From Candidatus Sulfopaludibacter sp. SbA4 (lineage in GTDB: Bacteria > Acidobacteriota > Terriglobia > Bryobacterales > Bryobacteraceae): a DNA stretch of 43,881 bases. Below, piece after piece: positions 40,673-43,133 of this stretch. Where the stretch lies: contig OMOG01000290.1 in the NCBI GenBank assembly GCA_900290305.1, positions 1 through 43,881 on the forward strand. Direction: 5' to 3'. Position numbers and translations under genes: made by a program. The notes beneath the pieces are model-generated. The model saw nothing but the letters and a program-made list of their open reading frames with translations, made no database searches and was not told the origin of the DNA. The number at the start of each line of letters is the position of its first letter. The stretch's first letter is position 1.

Positions 40673-40732
40673 CGATCATAGTATCGATTGGTTAGGTGGT
40701 CCCGGTCGGCGGCGGGAGCCCACCGCCAGATG

Positions 40733-41044
40733 GCACGCGGCTTGTGCGGTCTCGCTACGGTGGCGTCCACGGGTCCGTTCGCGGGGATGATCGGCACGGT
40801 GTGGGGGATCTACGGTTCGTTTCCGGCTTGCGGCGCGGACCAGTGGACGTGCATGGCGGCCATCGCGGAGCTGTTGTCGGAGTCGATCATGCCGGCCGCG
40901 CTCGGACTGGCCGTGGCGATTGCGGCGTCATGGGGCTACAAACACCTGAGCGCCCGGATGGCCGAATTCGACATCGAAATGCGGGGCGCGGTGCGGGGCC
41001 TGCCCGGCTATCTGTCGCGGTACGCTAGACTGCATAGCAGATGA
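40733..41044 (+). pseudogene. TolQ/ExbB/MotA-like proton-channel remnant (5' truncated)
   Basis: The protein from the ATG at 40733 (MARGLCGLATVASTGPFAGM) contains the conserved core of TolQ/ExbB proteins, GPFAGMIGTVWGIYGSF and IAELLSESIMPAALGLAVAI, followed by SWGYKHLSARMAEFDIEMRG. These are two membrane helices. The N-terminal helix and cytoplasmic part found in full-length members (about 200 or more residues) are absent: upstream lies the padR promoter, and the frame closes at 40679. No TolR partner is present. It ends at 41044, overlapping the AlbA_2 gene start by ATGA. I read it as the 3' remnant of a gene cut when the PadR/ADOP cassette arrived, but a short functional protein is not excluded. 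The 394-nt gap 40647-41040 holds nothing else. Confidence 0.6.
41021..41026 (+). promoter_or_regulatory. -10-like TACGCT before the AlbA_2 gene
   Basis: TACGCT ends 14 nt before the ATG at 41041 and is conserved in the truncated copy at 37307. It lies within the TolQ-like reading frame. No Shine-Dalgarno of strength precedes the ATG. Confidence 0.35.
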
Positions 41045-42219
41045 CCGATGCCGAATTGGAGCGCCTGCTCGCGGATGTGGCATCGGATCGAGTCGAGCGG
41101 AAGGAGTCTCTAGCCGATCGCGAGAAGATCCGTGAGGCCATCTGCGCATTCGCCAACGATCTGCCCAACCATCGGGCGCCCGGCGTGATTTTCATCGGCG
41201 CAAAAGACGATGGGTCCTGCGCCGGCTTGAATATCACCGACGAGTTGTTACTCACCCTCGCGGATATGCGATCCGGCGTCCTGCCTTTTCCTTCCATCGT
41301 GGTTCAGAAGCGGACTCTCCATCAGTGTGACATGGCGGTGGTCCTGGTGGAGCCCGCTGACGCTCCGCCCGTCCGCGTGCGCGGCCGCACGTGGATTCGC
41401 GTCGGCCCGAGCCGGGCGATTGCCACTCCCGAGGAGGAACGCCGCCTGACGGAGAAAAGGCGCTTTAAGGATGTCGCCTTCGATATTCGCCCTGTTTTCG
41501 GGGCCACGATCGCCGACCTCGACATGGACCTGTTCCGCCGAACCTATCTCCCGGCCAGCGTCGCGCCGGAAATCATCGCGGAAAATCAGCGGTCCGAGGA
41601 GCAGCAGTTGGCCTCTTTGCGCATGACCGGCAACGCGGTGCCGACAGTCCTCGGCGTTCTCGTCCTGGGACGCGATCCATGCGCCTTCCTTCCCGGTGCG
41701 TATGTGCAGTTCCGGCGGTTGGATGGAACCGTGTTGACCGACCCGACCCAGGAGGCTGCCAGGATTGCCGGCCCGCTGCCGGAGTTGGTACGGACACTCG
41801 AGGAAAAGCTGATCGCGCACATCGAGACCGCGCGCGATTTCACTTCCGGCCCCATCGACATCGCGCGCCCCGATTACCCGCTGGTGGCTTTGCAGCAATT
41901 GGCCCGCAATGCCATCCTGCATCGCACCTGCGAAGGCACCAACGCTCCCGTGCGTATCAATTGGTTTTCCGGCCGGATCGAGATCCACAGCCCCGGCGGA
42001 CCGTACGGGCAAGTCAATAAGACCAACTTCGGCGAGCCCGACGCCACGGACTACCGCAATCCGTACCTGGCGGAAGCGATGCGCAATCTGGGCTACGTGC
42101 AGAAGTTCGGCGTGGGCATCGCGCTTGCCCGCAAGGAGCTGGAGAAAAACGGGAACCCGCCGCCCGAGTTCCGGGTCGAAGACTCCACCGTGGTGGCTGT
42201 CCTCAGGAGACGGCCATGA
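41041..42219 (+). CDS. AlbA_2/Schlafen-type ATP-binding protein
   Basis: A 392-residue protein with an N-terminal AlbA_2 (Schlafen-like) domain (about 15-125: VERKESLADREKIREAICAF, APGVIFIGAKDDGSCAGL, WIRVGPSRAIATPEEERRL), a linker (about 130-250) and a C-terminal HATPase_c_4-like domain (about 255-392: LVALQQLARNAILHR and IEIHSPGGPYGQVNKTNF, ending YVQKFGVGIALARKELEKNG). Proteins of this type are annotated as ATP-binding transcriptional-regulator-like, and AlbA_2 domains also occur in RNA-cleaving Schlafen proteins and some defence loci. The first ATG of the AlbA_2 domain is the start. It overlaps the ParA-like gene by ATGA, so the two are coupled. A diverged copy of its 5' end lies 3.7 kb upstream. 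A role in regulation or defence is inference. Confidence 0.88.
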   Translation: MTDAELERLLADVASDRVERKESLADREKIREAICAFANDLPNHRAPGVIFIGAKDDGSCAGLNITDELLLTLADMRSGVLPFPSIVVQKRTLHQCDMAVVLVEPADAPPVRVRGRTWIRVGPSRAIATPEEERRLTEKRRFKDVAFDIRPVFGATIADLDMDLFRRTYLPASVAPEIIAENQRSEEQQLASLRMTGNAVPTVLGVLVLGRDPCAFLPGAYVQFRRLDGTVLTDPTQEAARIAGPLPELVRTLEEKLIAHIETARDFTSGPIDIARPDYPLVALQQLARNAILHRTCEGTNAPVRINWFSGRIEIHSPGGPYGQVNKTNFGEPDATDYRNPYLAEAMRNLGYVQKFGVGIALARKELEKNGNPPPEFRVEDSTVVAVLRRRP

Positions 42220-43133
42220 GCGTGCCGGTGATTGCCTTCTTCAATAGTAAGGGCGGTGTGGGAACGACGTCACTGGTCTATCACCTGGCGTGGATGTTCA
42301 ACGATCTCCGAGTCAAGATTCTGGCCGTCGACTTAGACCCCCAGGCCGATCTCACTGCCGAATTTCTCGGGCCGGACTTGGGGGAGTTGATCGATTTGAC
42401 CCTCTACGATTGGGTACAGCAACCCCTCCACTCAAGGCCGGTTGTAGTCGATGAGCGCCTATGCTTACTGCCTGCCGATTTGAGGTTATCGTATTTCGAA
42501 GAGAAACTTGCCCTGGAGTGGCGTGAGCCCGCGCGGGCGGTTCACTCCGCTGTCTGGCGTGAGACGCAACACGTGGCGAGTCTCACTGAGTCGCAGTTAG
42601 TGCTGCTGGATTTGGGACCGAACCTGAGTGCGATCAATCGTGCGGGCCTGGCTTGCGCGGATCGCGTTGTGGTTCCCGTGGGATCGGATCTCTCTTCGCT
42701 CGAAGGCCTCCGCAATCTCGGGCCGGCTCTCGCACGATGGCGGAAAGGGGACGTCGGGTTGCCCGCGGGGCGGATGCGGCCACTGGGCTATGTCGTGTTG
42801 CTCCGTTCCGTCCGGTTCGATCGCCCGGTAAACGGAAATGCGAATTGGGCCGGCCAGATTCCTGGCGAATATCGCACCTGCGTCTTGTCAGAAGCCGCCG
42901 GCAGCACGATCCCCATACAAGACGACCCTTTCAACTTGGGTGTGCTCAAGTCCTATCCTGGTCTCGAAGACATGGCCCACGAAGCGGGCAAACCCATGTT
43001 CCACCTGAAGCCCGCGGATGGCGCCCTCGGCGCTTACCTGCAGTCCGCGGAAGAGGTCCGCAAGGCGTTTGAAGCCCTGGCGAGGACCATCGTGGCGAAG
43101 GCCGACCTTCCCGTCACACTGCCGGTGATATAG
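42216..43133 (+). CDS. ParA/MinD-like ATPase with P-loop lysine replaced by threonine
   Basis: A 305-residue ParA-type (AAA_31) protein. The Walker A region reads SKGGVGTTSLVYH at 11-23: signature K12 is present, but the P-loop lysine of KGGxxKT is T17 (codon ACG, where AAG would give Lys, one base away). Other motifs are intact: LAVDLDPQADLT (switch 1/A'), LVLLDLGPNLSAINR (Walker B-like) and RVVVPVGSDLSSLEGLRNLG. In the family, loss of this lysine severely reduces ATP binding or hydrolysis. The later part (GEYRTCVLSEAAGSTIP, LEDMAHEAGKPMFHL) matches the chromosomal ParA-like subgroup, not plasmid partition proteins; no ParB or centromere-like repeats are nearby. It overlaps the AlbA_2 gene by ATGA and is probably its partner (inference). 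Confidence 0.88.
   Translation: MSVPVIAFFNSKGGVGTTSLVYHLAWMFNDLRVKILAVDLDPQADLTAEFLGPDLGELIDLTLYDWVQQPLHSRPVVVDERLCLLPADLRLSYFEEKLALEWREPARAVHSAVWRETQHVASLTESQLVLLDLGPNLSAINRAGLACADRVVVPVGSDLSSLEGLRNLGPALARWRKGDVGLPAGRMRPLGYVVLLRSVRFDRPVNGNANWAGQIPGEYRTCVLSEAAGSTIPIQDDPFNLGVLKSYPGLEDMAHEAGKPMFHLKPADGALGAYLQSAEEVRKAFEALARTIVAKADLPVTLPVI

Follow-up and report, generated by a model that had tools for sequence, protein, structure and literature searches.

An AlbA_2/Schlafen-ParA gene pair without the P-loop lysine in Candidatus Sulfopaludibacter: probably an inactivated copy of a widespread two-gene module

The stretch of DNA analysed here (the window; 43,881 nucleotides of Candidatus Sulfopaludibacter sp. 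SbA4, contig OMOG01000290.1) carries a gene for an AlbA_2/Schlafen-type protein followed by a gene for a ParA-type ATPase. The deviant Walker A motif of ParA/Soj partition ATPases, KGGVGK[TS], is absent from the latter, which reads KGGVGTT. The locus thus raises the question of whether the pair is a working regulatory or defence module, in which the altered ATPase acts as a sensor or scaffold as the first-pass annotation had suggested, or whether it is a copy that is losing its function.

The gene pair and its two proteins

Direct reading of the window confirmed that the two frames overlap by ATGA and that residue 17 of the ATPase is encoded by ACG (Table 1). The ORF preceding the pair, of the MotA/TolQ/ExbB type, ends with a 4-nt overlap between its stop and the AlbA start. 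This neighbour does not recur at homologous loci and lies outside the module. The truncated ORF resembles a deletion scar, and the deletion may have taken away the module's own promoter.

Table 1. Coordinates in the window of the gene pair, its motifs and the preceding ORF
Feature	Positions	Strand	Basis
AlbA_2 (Schlafen-type) + HATPase_c_4 protein, 392 aa	41041..42219	+	Pfam, family alignment (n=113), Foldseek
ParA-type ATPase, 305 aa, P-loop KGGVGTT	42216..43133	+	AAA_31, 9e-21
ATGA stop/start overlap of the AlbA and ParA ORFs	42216..42219		Direct sequence reading; near-universal in the family
ParA P-loop codons aagggcggtgtgggaacgacg (K12-T18; Thr17 = ACG)	42249..42269	+	Sequence, direct reading
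AlbA N-terminal codons, motif D-V-A-S-D-R-V-E-R-K	41041..41106	+	Sequence
5'-truncated MotA/TolQ/ExbB-type ORF	40688..41044	+	Pfam MotA_ExbB, profile positions 38-125 only

In the AlbA protein, Pfam assigned SLFN_AlbA_2 to residues 16-124 (5e-13; 50.1 bits against a cut-off of 25.3) and HATPase_c_4 to residues 302-387 (1.6e-17). The structure was predicted with a pLDDT of 89, and a Foldseek search with this model returned DIP2311 of C. diphtheriae (3lmm, E 2e-19) as the top match, with sensor kinases and human SLFN11/12/14 next. By sequence, too, the best solved relative of the AlbA family is DIP2311. We regard the window AlbA as a putative RNase that also carries a GHKL-type ATP-binding domain, with E14/E19/D56 as the putative catalytic triad positions. 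The spacing E14-x4-E19...D56 is the same as that of E205/E210/D248 in SLFN13, of which the E205A mutant is inactive (PMC5862951). That E14 corresponds to the Schlafen catalytic E205 is suggested by this motif spacing and by the fold matches rather than by a residue-level structural alignment. SLFN_AlbA_2 matches were also found at no fewer than four other loci of the same genome (C306, C476, C4 and C583), one of these matches sitting in a 1391-aa open frame.

The ParA protein of the window possesses an AAA_31/CbiA domain and the ParA fold. Among solved structures, the best sequence match to the family profile was DIP2308 of C. diphtheriae (3pg5), and the fold search returned Soj and DIP2308.

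A conserved pair, essentially not plasmid-borne

Among 84,980 species genomes scanned, at least 476 relatives were found. In the best 80 of these, AlbA lay upstream of ParA in 79 cases and the 4-nt overlap was present in 68; these 80 came from Cyanobacteria, Deltaproteobacteria, Planctomycetes, Chloroflexi, Actinobacteria, Gammaproteobacteria, Elusimicrobia, Acidobacteria, methanogenic archaea and others. At the homologous loci retrieved, ParA is almost always immediately preceded by AlbA, and within the Acidobacteria set the overlap was exactly 4 nt in 33 of the 40 pairs with a measurable overlap or gap. The distribution is patchy, with ParA present in 34 of 237 genomes of the window's taxonomic family and AlbA in 24 of 399 genomes of the class, and no constant third gene was seen beside the pair among the homologous loci compared. 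The earlier view that the two genes form a unit, together with the proposed check of their joint conservation, was borne out: AlbA-ParA is a real conserved two-gene module, paired far beyond chance. It is very widespread in bacteria and apparently undescribed; a literature search returned no paper naming an AlbA_2-ParA pair, although preprints and subscription papers fell mostly outside its scope, so this absence is weak evidence.

Copies broken by frameshifts, stops or internal deletions were observed at the Acidobacteria loci L071, L072, L073, L074, L093 and L102, and the module therefore appears to be often lost. At L074, L092 and L093, AlbA stands without ParA or beside ParA fragments. Since AlbA persists there without an intact ParA, the latter probably does not serve as an obligatory antitoxin and looks more like an activator.

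The ParA fold, with Soj and DIP2308 as best solved relatives, could suggest the remnant of a plasmid or chromosome partition system in which AlbA_2 served as the ParB-like DNA-binding partner. In place of a ParB there is the AlbA_2 protein; neither a ParB neighbour nor iteron- or centromere-like repeats were seen at the window locus, in agreement with the first-pass annotation, which had held the pair not to be a standard partition system. The plasmid tblastn with ParA gave only four weak matches; no AlbA partner was listed beside the annotated one examined (Vibrio), and the Burkholderia record has no annotation at the matching place. Searches of phages and plasmids with AlbA (tblastn) retrieved only remote (<30%) general AlbA_2/HATPase relatives, and the IMG/VR viral contigs contained no relatives of the window ParA. 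The pair is essentially not plasmid-borne, and given also its sporadic distribution and the Hma context described below, we consider a partition origin very unlikely.

Lesions in the window copy and across the family

The earlier statement that the other ATPase motifs are kept holds for the signature Lys12, DLDPQ and the Walker-B-like LLDLGPN, but the window ParA has lost about 18 further sites outside the P-loop with 90% conservation across the family (larger set). By the leave-one-out approach, 14 of 82 conserved positions are broken in the window ParA, compared with mostly 0-5 in members with the Lys. Four in-frame deletions have removed segments of 6, 7, 6 and 11 residues, leaving 305 aa against about 330 in the family, and the terminal branch ratio ParA/AlbA of 2.28 is the third highest of 35 pairs.

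The partner protein is altered as well. The family consensus at the AlbA N-terminus is E-S-D-x-x-E-R-K/T, as against the window motif given in Table 1, and in the family alignment (n=113) position 14 is Glu in 110 homologues and Ala only in the window copy, while E19 is conserved in all and D56 in 89%. In place of the three-carboxylate Schlafen active site, the window AlbA thus has A14/E19/D56, as matched by spacing. Moreover, Cys replaces Tyr297 (conserved in 110/113) and Gly replaces Asp311 (102/113); apart from such losses the protein is well conserved. Because both the P-loop Lys and the putative catalytic Glu are gone (K17T in ParA, E14A in AlbA), ATP hydrolysis and RNA cleavage are likely both lost, as judged from the sequences.

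Lesions of the P-loop are not confined to the window. Of 115 ParA sequences, 99 have KGGVGKT, two have conservative variants, eight are without the Lys (T, R or Q instead) and six are otherwise damaged. Parsimony on an AlbA tree of 106 pairs gave seven independent losses of the Lys and 12 alterations of the P-loop. In the sample of genome contigs the low lesion rate is a lower bound, as this sample was picked by patterns favouring an intact P-loop. At L062 an otherwise full-length ParA has NARASARKT near its N-terminus (from 9421, + strand) in place of NKGGVGKT, which looks like the result of a short compensated frameshift across the P-loop.

That the Lys is truly present in the window genome and was obscured by a sequencing or assembly error is conceivable, the change being a single base and the assembly fragmented (790 contigs, 84% complete). 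However, the same gene differs at many other conserved residues and in four segments. Furthermore, the P-loop was altered in 9 of 38 Acidobacteria-set copies but in none of 30 Soj proteins from genomes of the same taxonomic family (Fisher p=0.0036). Since Soj was KGGVGKT in 30/30 cases, many of them from likewise fragmented assemblies, sequencing error is not the cause of the altered P-loops, and we regard it as extremely improbable for the window.

A functional pseudo-ATPase is another reading: the loss of Lys would have been selected, locking ParA in one nucleotide state and turning the module into an ATP-independent scaffold. The seven or more independent losses are consistent with this, as are the window deletions, all in-frame, and several full-length ParA proteins that lack the Lys, have few other lesions and stand beside an intact AlbA (L123 with KGGVGTT, L119 and L156 with KGGVGQT, L110 with KGGVGRT). 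On the other hand, the replacing residue varies (T, R, Q) and no T clade is supported. A "Thr subgroup" of the window, L077 and L100 appeared in a concatenated tree and was absent with AlbA alone or with the larger set, long branches being the likely cause; Thr17 is not a subgroup hallmark. Members with an altered P-loop also lose more of the other conserved sites (median 4 vs 2, Mann-Whitney p=0.004, relatedness uncorrected), and the window AlbA is itself without the putative catalytic Glu. The pseudo-ATPase reading is therefore possible but unlikely.

The alignment at residue 17 proposed in the first-pass annotation gave a divided answer. Loss of the Lys does recur in other lineages; the nearest kin of the window copy by AlbA, on the other hand, all keep KGGVGKT, the outcome that had been named in advance as a sign of simple decay or error. 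With a broadly degraded ParA and a partner lacking its putative catalytic Glu, a sensor or scaffold role is not supported for the window ATPase.

A likely inactivated copy of a probable defence module

We conclude, with a probability of about two in three, that the window holds a drifting copy, no longer active, of a widespread module of probable Schlafen RNase and ParA, which probably serves in defence. In the intact module, the AlbA_2 domain would be a Schlafen-type RNase effector gated by AlbA's own GHKL domain, a second ATP gate. ParA, translationally coupled to AlbA through the 4-nt overlap, would cycle with ATP and license the RNase or sense for it. Such a module would most likely belong to anti-phage defence or assist it, and if ParA is the activator, P-loop lesions could be a cheap way of silencing a costly system. 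Against decay, both window ORFs are intact, the ParA deletions all keep the frame, AlbA is otherwise conserved and the Lys was repeatedly lost elsewhere beside an intact AlbA Glu. With open frames, in-frame deletions, a gene-like GC3 and a conserved AlbA, the decay is probably recent, or a non-catalytic role is still selected. In a broader and rather doubtful version, a pan-prokaryotic Schlafen-ParA defence module would repeatedly have had its ATPase turned Lys-less and ATP-insensitive, a switchable system thereby being constitutively silenced or constitutively scaffolded, with the window pair as a late, still selected case.

The Hma (HmaABC, Type-1 BREX-related) operon context speaks for a defence role. 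At L191 the gene order is HmaA helicase, AlbA_2, ParA, HmaB DUF1156 methylase and HmaC DUF499 ATPase, as confirmed by PADLOC models. HmaB lies directly 3' of ParA at L157, L132 and L151 (with a 4-nt overlap in the first two), HmaC follows ParA at L127, and at L080 a DUF1156-type ORF, assigned by clustering, takes the position that HmaB has elsewhere. Hma fragments or partial sets were found at L152, L159 and L198. The defence part of the earlier suggestion thus gains in likelihood, while the altered ATPase as sensor or scaffold is unsupported for the window.

Enrichment in defence islands beyond Hma was considered and rejected: the immediate neighbours of homologous pairs are mostly ordinary genes, and ten further same-strand neighbours had no PADLOC match. 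The window pair itself gave no strong PADLOC match, only weak partial ones (pAgo and Aga fusions, PDC-M28B). At L198 (2795-4432), a further protein, AlbA_2-like at its N-terminus (EGARIEFK) and without a PADLOC match at 1e-15, is encoded between an Hma-type helicase and the pair; at L132 (10410-12319), HmaB and HmaC, beside the pair, are separated by an inserted OLD-like-looking ATPase and a small gene.

If the module is truly a defence system, a ParA-type switch joins the Schlafen RNase toolkit in hundreds of species, and a component is missing from PADLOC's Hma models. The repeated P-loop lesions form a natural mutational experiment, from which it seems that the module owes its activity or its cost to ParA binding or hydrolysing ATP.

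Degenerate P-loops without the catalytic Lys (RGGVGTT/KGGVGTT-like) occur in the ParA/MinD relatives BcsQ and TadZ/CpaE. These belong to other operons, whereas the Lys change is private in the window and scattered in the family, and the window ParA stays far below the cut-offs of the curated pseudo-ATPase families (BcsQ, 45.2 bits vs 157.85; CpaE_hom, 15.8 vs 154). DIP2308 and DIP2311, relatives of ParA and AlbA respectively, have locus tags three apart, which suggests that a distant version of the pair was probably crystallised gene by gene with the link unnoticed; identity is, however, about 20%. With Hma, the likeness is that at least six homologous pairs lie inside or beside its genes, and the difference is that most copies, including that of the window, stand alone: HmaB had no match in the window genome, so the set HmaA+HmaB+HmaC is not present there. 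In one description of BREX and BR (Hma) loci (PMC12839542), the back-up effectors include Schlafen RNases with a fused minimal histidine-kinase domain; the paper also refers to a 2025 preprint on anti-phage defence by bacterial Schlafens, and neither "ParA" nor "MinD" occurs in its text. The AlbA protein resembles these RNases in combining AlbA_2 with a C-terminal ATPase domain of the minimal histidine-kinase type and, where sited in BR/Hma operons, in its location, but here a 4-nt overlap joins it to a ParA-type ATPase, and it is found mostly outside Hma loci.
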